A DNA stretch of 64,000 bases from positions 3,586,672 through 3,650,671 of the forward strand of contig KK106981.1 of NCBI GenBank assembly GCA_000611775.1. The letters run 5' to 3'. The position numbers and the translations under genes are program-made. Position 1 is the first letter of the stretch. Every line of letters begins with the position of its first letter. This document shows positions 39,184-50,103 of this stretch, piece by piece. Source of the stretch: Umbilicaria muhlenbergii. Taxonomy: Eukaryota > Ascomycota > Lecanoromycetes > Umbilicariales > Umbilicariaceae. A model generated the notes under the pieces. It did no database searches. It saw only the letters and a list, made by a program, of their open reading frames with translations, and was not told the DNA's origin.

Positions 39184-41599
39184 ATGTCGCTGTTCGGAAG
39201 CTCGCCTGACGATTCGAGCTTACCGTCGCATTCGCGGCCTCAGTCCAAGTCGCTCTTCGAAGACGATCCTACCCCTGGCGCGACGTCCAATGCCTCCCTG
39301 TTTGCAGATGAAGCCGACGGTAGCGGCCCCTCGCCCTGGGCCTTGCCAACGCCAAAGAAAGCTGGGCGAAGCGAGCTTGTCAAGACATTGCTGCCAGCAT
39401 CTGCAGTACCAGAAAGCTACATTGACATGTTCGATACCGTCTTAGAATCCGGAGATCGGCTTGGGTCAGGAATTAGCCTCACAGGCATCAAAAAGATCCT
39501 GGAAGATAGTGGACTGGATGCAACCGAGCAAGCTAGGGTTCTCAATTTAGTCATACCTGGTGGGAAAGAAGGCGCTGGGGGCTTGGGAAGGAGCGAGTTC
39601 AATGTTTTGCTTGCTCTCATAGGGCTATCGCAGGAGGATGAAGAGGCAACCTTAGATGGAGTGGATGAGCGACGGAAGAGTGAGTGCATCAATCTTGCTA
39701 TTAGAGGTTTAAGTAAGGCCGCCAAGCTGACATTCGTGCTAGATCTTCCAAAACCATCATTGCCCTACATCAAGCGGATCAAGACAGCTAAGGTGTCAGA
39801 AAACCTTGGAGCGTCAACAGCGGAGCAACGTGAAGCAGCTCCGTCACAGAAACCAAAATCTTCAGCTCCGTCTCCGATGAAATCGCGTCAGATCCGCAGG
39901 GACTCATTGGAGAATTCAGAGGTGGATCCATGGGCTAGCCCGGAAATGCATGTCGGTCATACCCATCCAGTCAACAATGATCTCACGCCGAAGTCGAACG
40001 GAACAACCGCGGCGAGACCGATAACAAACGGGCACAGCGGCCCCGTGAGAACCACAAGCGCCTTCACCACTCACCCAGAGTCGCCCACGAATACGTCATT
40101 GAGCGCACCTCCCCCTCAAGAACCTCAATCTGGCGGTAGTGGAGAAGGGTGGGACGCCAGCGGCGGCTTCCCAAACGCCGATCAGTCAGGCCTGGGTCCC
40201 GAGGGGTTTGGACCTTCTGGTGATCGGCAACGAGACTCAAGTGGTAGTGCTATGGGTAGGTCAATTGGTGGTGGCCACACGACTAGTCGCGGCGTGGAGG
40301 AAATTGTTACGATTACAGTGCTCCCCGAGAAAGAGGGCATGTTCATGTTTCAGCATAGGAATTACGAGGTCAAGAGTGCTAGAAGATCAAGTACAGTCGT
40401 CCGACGATACAGCGATTTCGTATGGCTACTGGATTGTCTGCATAAGCGGTATCCATTTAGACAATTACCCTTGCTGCCTCCGAAGAGGGTTGCGGGTATG
40501 TTCGGGCCTCTCTGTGATTGCGAATTGGACTAACTCAGATGTCTGACGAAGTGAACGGGAGGCATCTCTCGTCAGATGTGACGTTCATCGAAAAGCGGAG
40601 AAGAGGTCTCGCAAGGTTCACCAACGCCTTGGTCCGACATCCAGTCCTCGGTCAAGAGCAGCTTGTTGTCATGTTTTTGACGGTACCGACAGTGAGTACA
40701 AATATAGTAAGATTTAGTTACAAGCCGGCTCATAATCAGCATCAGGAACTCGCCGTGTGGCGAAAGCAAGCTACGATTTCCGTACAAGAAGAGTTCTCCG
40801 GCAAGCCGCTTCCACCGGGCCTTGAAGACTCTCTTCCTACCAACCTAGCCGATACGTTCGACACTGTTCGAGCTGGCGTCCGTCGTTCGGCAGACGCCTA
40901 TATCAGTCTCTGCAGTCTGCTTGAGCGCTTGGCGAAACGGAATCAAGGTTTAGCCGTGGACCAGTTGCGGTTTTCTCTCGCTCTGACAGCGCTGACAGAG
41001 CACTCGGACAGCACATACGCGGTAGACACTAATGACGTTCCCTCCCTCAATGCGGGGATCCACGCAACAGCCAAACACCTTTCCAACAGCCAGACTTTGC
41101 TAGAAGATGAAGCACGTGGCTGGGACGAGGGTGTGCTAGAAGACTTCAAGAGGCAAAGGGACACCCTAGTAGGCGTCCGAGATATGTTCGATCGGCGAGA
41201 TCGATTTGCCAGGGACAACATCCCACAGCTTGAAAGGCGTATAGAAAATAATGAGAACAAATTGGCCGGTTTAAGAGGCAGGCCCGAAGGGACGGTGAAG
41301 CCTGGAGAAGCCGAGAAGGTCGAGCAAGCAATTCAGAGTGTAAGGACAGCCGTAGCCATGATGACCTACCTCGACTAACCGGATTGTAGGACAAACGATC
41401 TATTGTAGAGCAACATGCGCGGGGCATCTTCATCAAAGAGTGCATACGAGACGAGTTGATATACTTCCAACAGTCACAGTATCATGTGACCAAGCTGCAT
41501 CAGGACTGGAGTCAGGAGCGGGTCAAATACGCCGAGCTCCAGGCGGACAACTGGAGAGCGTTGAGCGAGGAAGTGGAAAACATGCCAACAGGGGACTAG
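39184..41599 (+). CDS. MVP1: sorting nexin MVP1
   Basis: A 751-aa PX-BAR sorting nexin of the Mvp1/SNX8 type, acting in endosome-to-Golgi retrieval. Exons 39184-40495, 40552-40691, 40746-41339 and 41390-41599. Residues 60-180 form an EH-like region (VPESYIDMFDTVLE ... SLTGIKKILEDSGLD). A disordered linker follows. The PX domain starts EEIVTITVLPEKEGMFMFQH and has RRYSDFVWLLDCL and PPKRVAVNGRHL (the lipid-contacting Arg/Lys cluster), then FIEKRRRGLARFTNALVRHPVL. The C-terminal BAR part (ELAVWRKQATISVQEEF ... IRDELIYFQQSQYHV) is helical. The acceptor of intron 1 is taken at 40551 because only this restores KRVAVNG. Intron 2 (54 nt) is stop-free and a multiple of three. Confidence 0.93.
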
Positions 41600-42094: not shown

Positions 42095-45000
42095 ATGCCG
42101 CCCCCATATACGCCCTCGCAGAAAAACGCCATCGCCCAGTTCGTGAGCTTCACACACGCCAAGGACAGTATTGCTGCAAGAGTAAGTCGCATCCCCCATG
42201 ACTCCATGCGCCGACGGCTCCTTCATGTACTGCCCTGTTATCCTGCACTGTACTGTCTTTTCCCCAGACGCCCTACCGTCGTTCCTTCTCGATCTGGCAA
42301 AGCAATTGGCTAACACTGGGCTACCCGTAGCACCTCAAATCGCATGCATGGAACGTGGAGCAAGCGGTAGATGCGTATGTAAATATCAATTTCTTCACAT
42401 CGTTTTCCTGGTTTTCTTTAGGTTGTATCATACAGGGGCGTTGTCAACAAGGACTACGAGGCCTAGAGTGTCATGGGGGGCAAGTCACACGAGGGCCCCT
42501 GGAATACCCCTCAGGCTTCTCACTGCAAGGACGAGACTCCAGAGGCAGACCAAGTCTGGGAAGACCAAGGGGATGATACCGCGGAGAGGAGGCTCCGCAA
42601 GGCGAGAGCTCGACTGGACAGGAAACTAGCGCAGAATCACCTGAGTCGTGGAAGGGAGACCATGCTAGACGACGACGAGGAGGAGAACTCCAAGATGCTG
42701 CTCAACCTAGACGACACAGGTTCATTTGAATATGATCTCGGCGAATACCTGCATGATGATCCGGAACAATCATTGGACCCGTTGCACTCGAGGGAGATCT
42801 CTATGCTCAAAATACAGGACACCTTCCTCCTGCTATGTGAAAAAGCAAAGGATCCCACTAGTTGGGTCGATCCCAAAAAACTACCTTCAATGTTTCGCTT
42901 CGCTCTCCGTCGTCCCTTGATGCCAGAAAGGGAGCTTTACTGGAACTTGGCGGTTGTCGGTATAGATCCTTCCCTTGGATTCCTTGACCGCGACGATTAT
43001 ACCCCAGAGGGATCCCATCGACGGCCTAGACAGATATTGAAGGGCATAACGTTCAGTCAAGAAGAAAGAGGTCATGTTAGTAGGAGGTACGAACGTTTAC
43101 CGAAGGGCCTTTGCCTCCTGACGGGTCATGTAGATGATGTCGATGATGCTAGCTCCGCGGAAGATGAACCCACTGATCAGGATGAGATGATAGCAGAACT
43201 TTGGACTGTTTTCAACGGAGTCGAAGCTCACGAGATACGCCTCGAAGATGCACCAACGAGGTATCGGGATGTCCTAAGCGCCTTTGACTGCGGCAATGAT
43301 GAACTTGCGGCGTGGTTGGAAGATCTTGAGATTCCTAGCGACCACATTGATTGTGGTAGTCATCAGGCAGCACTCTCGAAAGCCTCTGGTAGTCCGAGCG
43401 TTGCTACAAGTCCCACGCTGCTCAAACAAATTGCAAGGCTAGTCCAGCTTCATCGCTCAAAAGATATCCGAGTGGAAGACTTTCTTACACTTCTCCGAGG
43501 AAGAATGGCTGGCTTCATCTTCAACGAGGATGTAATCATGGGCTATGTTAGGAATTCTGGCTTCGACGCAGAAGCGGTTGCTGATCTCCTTGTTGGGAAG
43601 AGCAACTCAACGTCCTCTTCTGCTAACGGAAGTGCAACACCTGCACAGGAAGAGTTATATCGATCGCCCCTTGAAACATCAAAGCTCGAAAGACCTGTGT
43701 TGGGCGATTCCGTCAAGCAAGACCTCAAAGGAGAATTCGCAGCAATACATAGGGAGGTATTGTGCTCACATATCTCTTTTGGCCGCGCCCTATCACGTTT
43801 CCGGGAGCTTTTGGGTGATCCTGATATGAGCAACGCCGTATTGTCCAAAAACCTTGTGGCGTATGGTATTCCCCCGGACCTGTTCTTTGGAGGTGAGAAC
43901 CTCGATGAAACCCCTCCAAAACTAGATGGCAGTTTAGAGGAAGCACAAATACCCTGTTTCAAAAAACCACGGATAACCCTGAGGCTTCCGGCGAAATCCA
44001 GTTGTCCTACCTCGCCCAGAGATCTAAATTCGACGACTACAGCATCCCGCAGTGTTTCAACAAACAGAGATACAGAAGATCATGTTCTTACTGAGAAAGC
44101 AATGCTCAAGATGCCCCCTCATGATGATTACGATGCAGCTTTGAAAGTTCAGGCAGATACAACGCCCGGCACCATCTTACAGTCCTCACCGGCCTCTTCT
44201 GGAGGTATATCGTCTGATGAGCAACAGTCTCCAACCACTCAAGCCAAGCAGCAGCCGGAGCAGCATCGAGAGGATGGTTCTTGCCAGACCGCCTTGACAA
44301 CTCAGTCTACGCAGAAAGCTCATTCGAGAAGTAATGAAAAGTCTGTAGATCTTCAGGGCTTAGTGCCCACCAGCATGCTAACAGATCCCGTGGATCCACA
44401 CTCCAAGCCTGAGGTCACTGAGATTGCTCAATCCGTTGAGCACGCAACTTTTGCGCAACCCCTCCTTTGTAATAGGCTAGACAAGTCTAAACAGAACAAT
44501 AAGGCACAAGCAGAGTCACCAAAACCACGAGCTGGAACGCCCATGCCGAGTGCCTCACTGCCACTGTCTGTCTTATCGCAACGTCGCAACGAAAGTATAG
44601 GGATTGAATGGAAGCGGTATGCGACTTGTTTCGCAGGGAACCCTAGCGAGGAGTTTTATGATCGCGGAAGGCTATCTGTCTCCCCCGAGAAGGGTACTTC
44701 GGTCGACTTGTTTGGATTGCCCATCCCTACAAAAGATGCTCGCGACATGGCCAAGGCCATGAAATTGCCACCCGATTTTGCCGAAAGGCGGATCCGGTCT
44801 ACAACGCCTCGAAGGGTCAGTGCACAAAGATTTGAGAAAGCAACCTCCAATATAACATTACCGAGCCCTAAGCGTAAATCCTCTACCACTTCGGAACCGG
44901 GTCATCGGAAGATGATGAAACAGGAGGCCACAGAACCTGATGTGTTCGCTGCAGAAGGGCAAGATCATGACGACTTCATTCGAAGCTTATTTACCCCTGA

Positions 45001-47133
45001 GATTCTAAGTCAGTCGGGTCTGGCATGCGGCTGGTGTCTTGAAATGAAATGCCTTTGCGGTAGAAGCAAGGAGACAAAGGAGGAGGACGCCTCTGAGAAA
45101 CTGAGTAGCACACCCATGGAGCGAGATACACATCCAATGCTTCTTCAACAGCCCCCGACTTCTGTGGAAAAAAATGAACACAGTTCCACGACAGATCTAA
45201 GCTGGCATCTTCTCAAAGAGGCAAGCGAGACCTGTATCTTTGGCGCGGTGGGTACTGACGAAGCCGCCAATGCTGCTCTTTCCTTGACTTCGATTGCAAC
45301 AAATCATCAGATTACGCTGGATACTGTTGTAGGGAATAAGCGCAAGAGCAATGTTATATCTGCAAGGAATCTCCCAGCCAGCGATGAGACCACCAATGGA
45401 AGTACAGAACACATTGAAGTTTCAAGCCAAGACGAGTGCCCTCCCAAGAAGGGTGAAAAGTTAACCTCAGAGGCAACAGATCAACGGTCCAGTGGTCGTG
45501 GCGAAGATATTGCTCCACCTCCCACACCTGGGCAAACTTCGTGGGAATCAAGTCCTCTTCCGGCCGTCAGATACTCAATAGTAGATGACGTCGGATTAAT
45601 CTCGCCTGTCTCTCGTGATTCATCTTTCTCGTACGAACCGATGGGCCAGGGGTTGGAGGATCCATCAGACCTGGAAGAAACTGCAGCACCCGATGAACCG
45701 AGCTTACCACTGTCGCGGTGTCCATTCTCCTCATCCACATCAGCACTTCGTGAATCATCTGCACAGGCAGAATCAGAAGATACAGCAGGGGCAGATCCAG
45801 TGACGCTATCCATGTCACGGCGTCCGCGTTCATCGTCAAAGTCTACGCTTGTAGAGTGGCCTGGCCAGACAAAGGAACAAGACGCAGGGGTCCCAGATGA
45901 ATTGATGCCGCCACTGTCGCCCCGTCCACCACCCACGCCACACCCAAGAGCGCTGAAATTACCGGGCAAGCTACTGGATAGCTCCTCCTCAATAGATGAA
46001 AGTCAAGCCAAACAAATTGGATCAGGAGGACTGCATCGACGACGTGCATCAATTCGAGCACGCACCGGATCCGAAACCCTGTCGGTTCGTACGAACAAGT
46101 TAAAGGCACAACGGCGGCGATACAAACTGTTTGAGCGTAGGAGAAACAGGCAAAAGGGGATGTCATACGCTCGGACGCTCGACCGGGTACTGGAAGAGGG
46201 CCGTCGTGAACACAAGTCGTATTTTGTTGTCATGGCGGAATTGAGACACAAAAGAATTCAAGCTAACTTGCTAGCGCGTCAATACAGGTTTTTCCAGACT
46301 TCTAACGGCCTGTCGGGCCCTTCGGGGCAGACGGTAGCTCTCAGCAAACTGTTCGACAAATATCGAGGTTCGCGAAACTCCATCAAGTCCTTTTGCAGTG
46401 GTAATGGCTAATGAGTATGCTCTTGGTGCAGAAGAAGCGACCGAGAGCCCCGACACCATCGGCGTCGAAGGCTCAATGAAATATCTCGGCGATCTCGGCG
46501 TCAACCTAGACGAAGTCGTCGTCCTCGCCGTCCTCGCAGAGCTCCAAGCCCCCACCATGGGCGAATTCAGCCGCGAAGGATTCATCCAAGGCTGGAAAAC
46601 CTACAGGCACTCCCCCCCCCCAACCAAACCCCTTGTTCCCCAAAACCCACTCCCCCACAAGTCCGCACCGCTAACATACTCCCCCGTTCCCTCACCGCAG
46701 CGCCGACACCCTCACCAAACAACAATCCCTGATCCCCCAATTCCGGCGCCACCTCACTACCGCCCCCGACTTCTTCAAACGCGTCTACAAACACACCTTC
46801 CTGATCGCGCGCTCCCCCGGCCAAAAGTCCGTCCAACTCGACACCGCAATCGAATACTGGCGCCTCCTCTTCACCAACCCCAGCATCGCGTGGCATACCC
46901 CCACGACCCCTTGGCTGGAGTGGTGGATCGAGTATCTCGAGGCCAGGTGGAAGAAGAGCGTTAATAAGGACATGTGGGACCAGACGGGGATTTTTGTGGG
47001 GAAGAGTCTGGCGGATGAAAGTATGGGCTGGTGGAGTGAGGATGGGGCGTGGCCGGGGGTGTTGGATGAGTTTGTGGGGTTTGTGAGGGAGAAGAGGGCG
47101 GAGGCGGAGGGGGAGAGGATGGAGGTGGAGTGA
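42095..47133 (+). CDS. DCN1: DCN1, cullin neddylation E3 (interrupted by a 3.9-kb intron)
   Basis: Canonical product of 272 aa (yeast Dcn1 is 269), the scaffold that helps Ubc12 transfer NEDD8 to cullins. Exons 42095-42181, 42331-42374, 46288-46367, 46432-46606 and 46701-47133, phases 0, 2, 1, 2. The first two exons give the UBA domain ([16 protein letters not shown], then [15 protein letters not shown]). Exon 3 gives FFQTSNG and LSKLFDKYR. Exons 4-5 give the PONY domain ([60 protein letters not shown]). Intron 2 (42375-46287) is 3.9 kb. It has a GTATGT donor, a GCTAAC branch site at 46262-46267 and a TACAG acceptor, and contains a 1,300-codon ORF. Intron 4 (46607-46700) appears to be GC-AG. 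Domain calls firm; how the 3.9 kb is used is open. Confidence 0.9.
42473..46411 (+). CDS. large ORF inside DCN1 intron 2, in frame with DCN1 exon 3
   Basis: An uninterrupted 1,312-codon ORF on the same strand as DCN1. No family recognised. The N-terminus is acidic ([16 protein letters not shown]). Residues about 100-330 look folded ([50 protein letters not shown]). The middle is Ser/Thr/Pro/Gln-rich. A Cys cluster [12 protein letters not shown] lies near 852-863. The C-terminal 100 residues are basic and helical ([20 protein letters not shown] ... [17 protein letters not shown]). It has no stop before the DCN1 acceptor: it runs in the DCN1 frame through exon 3 (FFQTSNG ... FDKYR) and stops 44 nt into intron 3. 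It may be a cassette exon of a giant Dcn1, or a nested gene sharing the DCN1 3' end. A start at ATG 42473 or splicing from DCN1 exon 2 are both possible. Confidence 0.7.
46607..46700 (+). other. probable GC-AG intron of DCN1
   Basis: The DCN1 frame demands a junction after TACAG at 46606, where the next bases are GCACTC, not GT. A run of ten C follows. The branch point GCTAAC near 46672 and the acceptor ACCGCAG at 46700 are normal. No usable GT donor restores phase 2 nearby. The resulting junction reads [12 protein letters not shown]. Confidence 0.65.
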
Positions 47134-47575: not shown

Positions 47576-50103
47576 TTACTCCTCTCTCATCCCCCAATCC
47601 GGCTCCTCACCCCTCCATTCCGTCAACGGCACACTCCCCGGCATCTCCTCCCCACCCGGCAATCTCAACCTCGGAAACGGCCGATCCCGCCACGCATACA
47701 CCACCCCATCCACCCCTCCATCCGCATCCGCCCCACTTTCGCCCATCCCACTCTCCTGCGCCACCATCGAAGCGACCCCTGCCCCGGTCCCCGGTCCCAC
47801 ACTCCCACTCCCCCCCCTGGCTCCCAGCCCCAAAAACCACCTGCCGAGCATAACGACATAAGCCCAATACCACGCGATCGCAATCTCGACCTGCTCGAAC
47901 GGCGAATGCGGTCCATTGGGCCCATCCTCCTCATCGCTGCCCGGTCCATCATCCCCCTCATCGTCGGCGACAAAGTCTTCGTCGAATTCTCGTTCCAACT
48001 CCGCGGCTTGCACGGCGGCGGATTTGAGGATGTGGAGGTGTTCGACGCGGGTGGCTTTGGCTTCGTCGACGAGGACGAGAGCGCCGCTGTGCCAGCCGGC
48101 GGCGCTGACTTTGAGGGCGAAGAAGGGGGTGAGGTCGGGGGTGGGGGTCGTGGGTGCGTTACTGGAGGAAGACGAGGAGGGGGATGAGGAAGGTGAGGAA
48201 GGGAGACTGGTGGTCCAGGCTCGGCCTTCGCGTTCGAACCATTCGCTCGTGACGATGTGGGCGTCCGAGGTGGAGTCGCTGATCATGCGCCAGCGGTCCG
48301 CGGCTTCGGGCTGTTGAGCTTTGGTCACCATGTCCTGCAGCCAGATTCGCTTTTCCTTTTCGAACCAGATGCTGCGGCCGAGGCGGATCTTGTTGGCTTC
48401 GAGATAGGCGTCTTGGGCGAAGCCGCCGTCGGCTCGGACGCCGCGGAGGAGAGCGTGTATGCGGGTTCCGAGGCCTAGGGCACCACATGCTCGGGACTCG
48501 CGGCCCCAGGAGGTGATGATGCCGTTGGAGTGGAGGGCGTGGAAGTGGTAGTCGCCGAAAGCGAGGGAGATGACGTTAGTATTCTGGAGGGCTGGTATTA
48601 TGGTGGGTTGTGGGAGCGTAACTTCCGGTGATGAGCCATTGATCCTGTGGGAACGGACAGCATCGAGGAAGGCCCTGTCAGCGATGAGGACCTTGCCAGA
48701 GGCAGTGAACACCGCAAAACTTCTGAAAGACCCTTGAACGTCACAGATCGGATCATCAGGTGATGAAAATGACGTGATTTCAATAGGACCCTCTCCCGTA
48801 GACCCTTGATGAGTGGACTGGGATGTCGTATCGAAGAGAAAAACTTTGTTCAGGCTGGTTTTGAAGACTATGTACCTCTCAAGAACGATGTGATTAGTGA
48901 CTTCGCCGACTTCATGCGCTGACGGCGAGTTGCGGTCGTCGCCTCTCTGACGGTAGCCAGTTCCAGGAATCGTGAAGCATTCAGACTCAAGCGTATCTTC
49001 TCCTACCCTTCCAAGAGGCGGTAATTCGTATGGCCAGTAAATTATACCTGTGCCGTTAACATAAATGGTGCTTTTGTCCCAGCCTATCAGGAGTTTCGTA
49101 AGCTCTTTCTATCTGAATAATTGCAATGGATCGTGCCATTGTCTTACCAGCAACGACCCGTGTGACTCTTCCCACTCCCGACGTCAGCCCATTCTCAACC
49201 AAGTCAACGTGCAGAGGCCGCATGTTCCAACCGTGTTGGTTGATGTTGTGCCACATCCACACCTTGCCACTGTCTGCCAATCCGAGAACGTGAGAGCGAC
49301 CCGTAGAGAATTGTCTTATAGCTGTAGCAGGTTCGTACCACCTGTTACTACTCATTGGGTAACCCGGAGGGAAATGTAATCGGACCAGGCTTGGCATGGG
49401 TGCTTGATCGAAAAGTTCCCCATTCATCACACCAACAGCATAGACAGCGCCATCGGCGTTAAGCAGTGTAGTCGACCATCCCCTACCTCAATGTTAAGAT
49501 TAGCCCCACGAGTCTCCAAAGATTTCAGATCGTTTAAACCCCCATTGTCTATCTTGACTTACCCACATTGTAGGTCTGCAACGACACCAACGTCGTCCAC
49601 ACCCTCCATCCTTGCAGGCCATCCTACCGTCCTACCTGCCCTCAATTGTCGCTGGTAGTGCGGCAACCGATTCGATTCATCTCCTGTGGGATAGCCATGT
49701 CCTAGGTTACCTTGTTCATTGTTGCCCCACGTAAAGACCCTCGTTTGTGTTAGGAGATGCCTGTAAAGCCATTGCCAGCGGGCGCCATCGGCCTGGAGGA
49801 GGGGTTGCGGGGGAATGCGGAAAGTGTTACGGGTAAGAGTGCGCCAAAAGGTAGGGTCAAGGCGAAATGAAAGTAAAGCTTTCTTACATACGGAAGAAAT
49901 CAGCAGATTCGTTGGAGAAGGGAGGGGAGAAAAGGGTTAATCAAAGAGTACCTACAGCAGAACTCGTGAGGGAAAGGAAATCCTGAGCATCGAGGTAGGG
50001 GAAGATAGCGAAAAGGACGTCAGTGGCTGTCTCGTGATATCAGAGGCAAGCCGGTCTTTCTGTAGCAACGTTGATACATACGCAGGTCGGTGAGCAGCAT
50101 CAT
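47576..50103 (-). CDS. SAF1: F-box and RCC1-repeat protein (SCF-associated factor Saf1-like)
   Basis: A 751-aa probable SCF substrate receptor. Exons 50103-50082, 50026-49956, 49882-49563, 49482-49148 and 49083-47576. The F-box is at the very N-terminus (LLTDLPTDVLFAIFPYLDAQ, then LTSSAKALLSFRLDPTFWR). RCC1-type beta-propeller blades follow: RVFTWGNNEQGNLGHGYP, GGWSTTLLNADGAVYAVG, SHVLGLADSGKVWMWHNI, GWDKSTIYVNGTGIIYWP, SFAVFTASGKVL, DYHFHALHSNGIITSWGRE and WHSGALVLVD. The layout is that of yeast Saf1, which targets adenine deaminase; the substrate here is unknown. The C-terminal third has a Ser run, an acidic block and a Gly-rich tail. The first exon codes only seven residues. The gene is convergent with DCN1. 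Confidence 0.87.

Follow-up and report, generated by a model that had tools for sequence, protein, structure and literature searches.

A DCN1 locus of Umbilicaria muhlenbergii probably encoding two proteins that share a PONY domain, with intron signals also read as codons

The DCN1 gene studied here lies in a 64,000-nucleotide window of the Umbilicaria muhlenbergii genome (GenBank assembly GCA_000611775.1, contig KK106981.1, positions 3,586,672 to 3,650,671 of the forward strand), and all coordinates below are those of the window. The gene is on the plus strand, and its large second intron contains an open reading frame that continues in frame into the next exon, so that the locus probably yields two proteins sharing the PONY domain. 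Splice enumeration gave five exons that encode 272 aa once intron 2 is removed. Exon 1 (42095–42181) carries the start of the UBA domain and exon 2 (42331–42374) its remainder up to the residues VDA, ending in phase 2; exon 3 (46288–46367), exon 4 (46432–46606) and exon 5 (46701–47133) follow, the last holding the bulk of the PONY domain. Pfam analysis of the spliced protein detected UBA_4 (8.2e-13), UBA_8 (4.4e-9) and Cullin_binding, the PONY model (PF03556, 1.7e-32). In addition, human DCN1-like protein 1 aligned to residues 7–262 (6e-34), and the alignment crossed the 42374/46288 junction, with AVDAFFQ in the query facing ATDNFFQ in the human protein. An earlier sequence-only reading of this DNA had claimed that a normal 272-aa Dcn1 requires 42375–46287 to be skipped, and the exon structure, domains and human alignment bore this out at the sequence level. 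By domains and alignment, the predicted short product is of the Dcn1 type (UBA plus PONY). It resembles Dcn1 and DCN-like protein 1 in these respects; the difference is that intron 2 is 3.9 kb long here and would double as a coding exon of another product. Only one PF03556 match was found in the genome (34.8 Mb, 7 contigs).

Intron 2 (42375–46287, 3,913 bp) has the donor GTATGT, the acceptor ACAG and a branch-point-like CTAAC whose A lies 21 nt upstream of the intron end. The other DCN1 introns measure 149 nt (intron 1), 64 nt (intron 3) and 94 nt (intron 4), which does not agree with the earlier statement that introns here are 50–80 nt. Intron 4 (46607–46700) is a GC-AG intron with the donor GCACTC, and the donor of intron 3, GTTCGC, is weak. 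Intron 2 holds most of a stop-free frame of 1,314 codons on the plus strand (42467–46411, first ATG at 42473), called the giant frame here, which has homologues, crosses exon 3 and would stop in intron 3 if unspliced. Followed through exon 3 with introns 3 and 4 spliced out, it encodes 1,500 aa from ATG 42473 to the DCN1 stop. The inferred first coding exon of this long form (42473–46367, plus strand, MGGKSH... to ...FDKYR) would supply an N-terminus of 1,271 residues from a single exon; exon 3 is read in the same frame in both products, and exons 4 and 5 are common to both. The frame of about 1,300 codons running through exon 3 and the product of about 1,500 aa ending in PONY, both proposed from the letters alone, were thus recovered. 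Within the intron 2 segment the stop-free run is 1,273 codons, compared with a maximum of 306 among 300 first-order Markov copies. Stops in the same frame lie upstream of ATG 42473, the closest being a TAG two codons before it. The exon 2 frame differs from the giant frame and, with intron 2 unspliced, stops after 110 aa. The giant part of the window frame matched no Pfam-A family up to E = 1.

Proteins related to the long form were found in other fungi. A protein search with the window frame retrieved 9 proteins (7,999 candidates scored; proteins are numbered from P0001), and a search with the PONY part limited to long proteins retrieved 29 (531 candidates scored), 4 of them already among the former matches. 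A profile search (7,999 candidates scored) gave 8 matches, all found previously, and could miss distant relatives outside the two classes named below; scans of viral and genome contigs did not match the locus, as expected for fungal loci. The analysed set has 30 members: the window, proteins from 17 named species and 12 further proteins. The presence of the segment in relatives, which had been put forward as a check, was thereby established at the protein level. Four of the 29 proteins, which look like fusions of adjacent genes in other fungi, were left out: P0028, P0029 and P0032 for DNA polymerase names or domains, with a short segment as a further ground for the first two, and P0030 for PF01655. 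P0019 (Psora), with PONY and part of the giant and no boundary between them, was not counted, and P0012, a truncated model missed by the pattern used, was placed by hand.

The named species are Umbilicaria vellea, five Xylographa, Letharia, Alectoria, Stereocaulon, Pycnora, Trapelia, Heterodermia, Lambiella, Agyrium, two Candelina and Candelaria. A taxonomy look-up of seven genera (11 of the 17 species) placed Pycnora and Candelaria in Candelariomycetes, and Umbilicaria, Letharia, Heterodermia, Agyrium and Xylographa in three subclasses of Lecanoromycetes; the remaining six named species also belong to these two classes. The age of the arrangement is a lower bound, since other classes were covered solely by the long PONY proteins and the two giant searches. 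The claim that the large segment is tied to the PONY half of DCN1 held, given the frame into PONY and homologues in two fungal classes, and the frame is genuinely coding. The closest match in the window-frame search was P0001 (74% identity), in a group that includes U. vellea. Identity to the window over the giant was 67% in P0002, 60% in P0005, 29% in P0010 and 27% in P0018, and over exons 3–5 it was 87, 89, 71 and 62%, respectively; by these comparisons the giant part is fast-evolving and the shared exons are slow. The giants nevertheless belong to a single family: at a BLAST threshold of E < 1e-5 within this small set all 30 members fell into one connected group, some of the Pycnora links depending on a 29-aa match in exon 1. 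Cullin_binding was detected in 11 of the 15 long members scanned. Database proteins of these fungi named 'Scaffold-type E3 ligase' or 'Defective in cullin neddylation protein' (1,072–1,892 aa) are apparently the same long product, but they are single entries whose names, as listed, are silent on two products. Four models (P0002, P0016, P0027 and P0031) have in-frame intron 3 residues between giant and PONY, P0002 also having intron 4 residues; the frame is therefore open at that point, which may be due to chance, to introns overlooked by the models or to retained introns.

The boundary between the giant and exon 3 was examined for traces of the intron signals. Because the acceptor is placed AG|G, AGN forms one codon of the giant, and use of the acceptor throughout would restrict the boundary residue to R or S. 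In the window this codon is AGG (46286–46288, plus strand), Arg in the long form; in the short form its last base is the third base of an Ala codon, and any base after AG would give Ala (GCN). The boundary residue was R in 24 members and S in 6, that is R or S in 30/30, and R and S together reached at most 14/30 in any of the 25 preceding columns. The left-out P0030 also has R at this position. With one member taken from each of 14 clusters (defined at 40% identity over 300 aa), R or S was found in 14/14 against a background of 0.21 (binomial 4e-10, the independence of the clusters being only approximate). Two Candelina proteins with 88% identical giants have R and S, respectively.

The branch-point-like CTAAC (46263–46267, plus strand) lies in the giant codons GCT AAC, Ala-Asn. 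Read in the window register (RCTRAY), the branch-point pattern CTRAY corresponds to the dipeptide [AT][ND], which was present at codons −9 to −7 in 29/30 members and in 13/14 clusters; its expectation is 3.5%, and no other interval between −300 and −13 exceeded 9/30. On the donor side, the pattern GTRNGT did not occur in 45900–46287 and occurred in the whole segment only at 42375 and 45248, so that the simplest partner of the 46287 acceptor is the DCN1 donor at 42375. Intron signals and reading frame therefore both seem to be kept across the members, and a splice-signal signature kept at the same place as a coding frame makes two products likely.

The giant N-terminus contains a repeat of about 49 aa. 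In the window it occurs three times on the plus strand: a partial unit 1 (42866–42973, residues 132–167, profile match 3.5e-14), unit 2 (43199–43345, residues 243–291, 8.5e-19) and unit 3 (43736–43882, residues 422–470, 1.7e-20), the latter two being among the profile seeds. One to seven copies were present in 29/30 giants and none in the truncated P0012; the Candelina proteins have seven, of which one is weak in P0023. A profile grown from two window units within the seven Umbilicaria-group members only matched 21 of the 23 members held out, among them Pycnora and the three Candelariaceae, and none of 460 shuffled copies; P0012 and P0021 were missed. Pfam gave weak scattered matches to the units, the best being LEM at 0.0037 in 1 of 17, and no credible solved relative of the repeat fold was found (best E 0.2; emerin chains 0.28–0.44). 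The second half of the repeat is faintly LEM-like, a weak lead. Further downstream on the plus strand are a conserved 24-residue box (SPE box, 44681–44752), recognised by near-invariant columns in two alignments of 10 and 15 rows, and a cysteine motif CxxCx4-6CxC (45026–45058), whose pattern occurs in 20/30 members, counted without a chance control. The SPE box patterns (15/30 and 11/30) are poor, and no count relies on them. A KRK-S motif, counted likewise without a chance control, occurs in 21/30 members and is compatible with a nuclear signal; this motif and the cysteine motif are leads only.

The locus is flanked upstream by a gene on the same strand (39202–41378) for a Mvp1/Snx8-type sorting nexin with PX and BAR domains, its PX domain split over two frames, and downstream by a minus-strand region (47576–49108) with weak RCC1-like matches. 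The Psora protein P0019 fuses PONY with a further stretch and an RCC1-like domain (PF25390), suggesting that gene order is conserved.

We interpret the locus as one gene giving two PONY-sharing proteins, with a probability of about 0.8. The sequence itself gives the coding frame, its conservation, its continuity into PONY and, at the acceptor and the branch point, a retained signature in the residues; the existence of both RNAs, an internal start and a targeting role are inferred. In one RNA, exon 2 would be joined to exon 3 (42374/46288), the 3.9 kb would be an intron and the product would be Dcn1 (UBA-PONY, 272 aa). In the other, transcription would begin inside intron 2 or close to it, with read-through of the 46287 acceptor, making the 3.9 kb the giant first coding exon; translation would run from ATG 42473 through exon 3 to PONY after removal of introns 3 and 4, giving 1,500 aa with no UBA. 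With a single acceptor the two uses would be mutually exclusive, the branch point and the AG doubling as Ala-Asn and Arg/Ser codons. As the same bases cannot be intron and codon in one RNA, the two products would compete. The DCN1 ATG is unusable for the long RNA without other splicing, because that frame stops, and the simplest source of the long RNA would be a transcript beginning downstream of it. Moreover, the start methionine is shared as MGG by the window, P0001, P0002, P0003 and P0006, and as MLTA in a second group of Letharia, Alectoria and P0034, which favours an ATG belonging to the giant over splicing from the UBA exons. Taken jointly, two products and a long form starting at its own ATG are somewhat better supported than an even chance. 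The two-product arrangement would apply to this fungus and probably also to a group of mostly lichen-forming fungi. The suggestion of two Dcn1 isoforms made with a giant cassette exon accordingly stands in part: two products are likely from the retained splice signature, but the shared methionine argues for a separate start rather than a cassette.

Several observations weigh against this interpretation. The third-position GC content is 0.47 in the giant (42473–46287) and 0.75 in DCN1, and codon usage differs. An intron of 3.9 kb is unusual in fungi and may splice poorly. The protein searches were aimed at the giant and at long PONY proteins, and the long-protein search cannot show short DCN1 models; the members are also partly gene models of uncertain quality. 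The AGN codon and the branch point in relatives were deduced from amino acids, the DNA read being that of the window, and the boundary patterns were noticed by eye before counting, so that the counts are not blind. In 30/30 members and 14/14 clusters the residue before the boundary is one that has codons with C or T in third position, as YAG requires (background 0.74), but this test is weak, as 74% of nearby residues qualify and codon −7 also gives 30/30. The branch-point dipeptide is absent from P0016. In P0004 the MGG methionine is missing and another lies upstream, and 9/30 members have DCN1 exon 1 at their start, a pattern compatible with a UBA-giant join. As regards the targeting role, a Pfam scan of 15 members at a threshold of 0.01 matched no models other than those for PONY and UBA.

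Those nine members bear on an alternative in which the long form is a UBA-giant-PONY protein made through a short intron from exon 2, with the giant as a cassette exon and short Dcn1 also produced; we consider this unlikely, though the most probable of the alternatives. Phase-0 joins for it exist at 42378/42515, where the sequence-only reading had placed one (the product is 1,534 aa rather than about 1,531), and at 42378/42467 (1,550 aa). The nine models pass from DCN1 exon 1 to giant sequence, P0015 and P0020 with UBA matches, and P0005 (U. vellea) joins UBA at what is apparently the first-proposed acceptor, with the residues ASRSK. However, the first ATG of the giant is common to close relatives and recurs within the Letharia group, the TAG before it in the window means that any join must enter downstream of that stop, and the join sites vary between models, as ab initio predictors may produce.

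It is improbable that the locus makes the long protein only, with the short DCN1 intron as a relic. Introns of this size are unusual in fungi, and the searches for relatives, aimed at the giant and at long PONY proteins, yielded no short DCN1 model. Nevertheless, the acceptor signature in all members and the branch-point signature in all but one speak for an intron still in use, as do the strong donor GTATGT with intact UBA exons in the window and the single PONY match found in the genome.

More improbable is a separate nested gene whose product ends in intron 3 and which shares DCN1 exon 3 by overlap alone. The unspliced frame does stop at 46411, 14 codons past FDKYR, and the unspliced tails of P0001, P0003, P0004, P0006 and P0008 end no more than 37 residues from that stop. 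Yet the intron 3 tail is variable, P0009 passes from giant to PONY without intron residues, and the four models that keep intron 3 residues still reach the end of PONY in frame. At the sequence level, a nested gene would be expected to terminate within the host intron, with a stop and a 3' end of its own, whereas this frame crosses the acceptor into exon 3.

Least probable of these readings is that the conserved acceptor belongs to a short intron in the C-terminal end of the giant instead of the 3.9-kb intron. The proteins test the acceptor side only, and weak donors could be used, but the interval 45900–46287 is devoid of GTRNGT donors, and the phases of exons 2 and 3 together with the UBA sequence suit the long intron. 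A retroposed or recently inserted gene, as had also been proposed, or a mobile element is not supported, since one copy was found (a single match with a protein and with a DNA query in prefiltered searches for an intron-bearing parent copy elsewhere in the genome), no family matched and the arrangement is present in both Lecanoromycetes and Candelariomycetes.

The proposed one-locus, two-protein arrangement resembles several known systems in part. Exitrons, or retained coding introns, are sequences that are intron or codons depending on splicing, as the 3.9 kb of DCN1 would be, but here the two ends do not lie in one coding frame: the donor is outside the open frame, and read-through from exon 2 ends early. 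GNAS XL-alpha-s has a large alternative N-terminal first coding exon spliced in frame to shared downstream exons; the DCN1 giant is likewise a large alternative N-terminal exon in frame with shared exons, but it would read through the acceptor, with the signals as codons, instead of being spliced. The mammalian DCNL3–5 proteins are products of separate genes. They resemble the long form in having PONY with a different N-terminus, and differ in being separate proteins with short N-termini, as opposed to one locus and an N-terminus of 1,271 residues. According to PMC4886823, mammalian DCN-like proteins have a common PONY domain and differing N-termini that set localization, in DCNL3–5 among them. 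On this analogy, the giant N-terminus would be expected to guide the PONY domain, and the long form is most likely comparable in its action to those animal DCN-like proteins that bear special N-termini; the repeats, weakly conserved middle, cysteine motif and KRK-S motif of its N-terminus would put PONY at a particular location or partner. Among the papers listed by literature searches, titles and abstract beginnings contained no description of this DCN1 arrangement, and nothing on this gene appeared in the portion of PMC10512270 covered.

Where mammals have several DCN-like proteins, these fungi apparently gain a second N-terminus from one gene and a dual-purpose acceptor. A further step, which we advance tentatively and hold at somewhat below even odds, is that a splice switch has been kept across two classes, cullin activation being tuned by splicing with one RNA form made at the cost of the other. 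The 3.9 kb would then be both the longest intron and the longest exon of the gene, and PONY would be split between Dcn1 and a giant neddylation scaffold. If the two-protein interpretation is true, a single gene model at the DCN1 locus would conceal one product of the two, and the locus offers a clean case for testing how splice signals persist as codons through long evolution. Furthermore, a repeat without a Pfam family is now linked to a cullin-neddylating domain.

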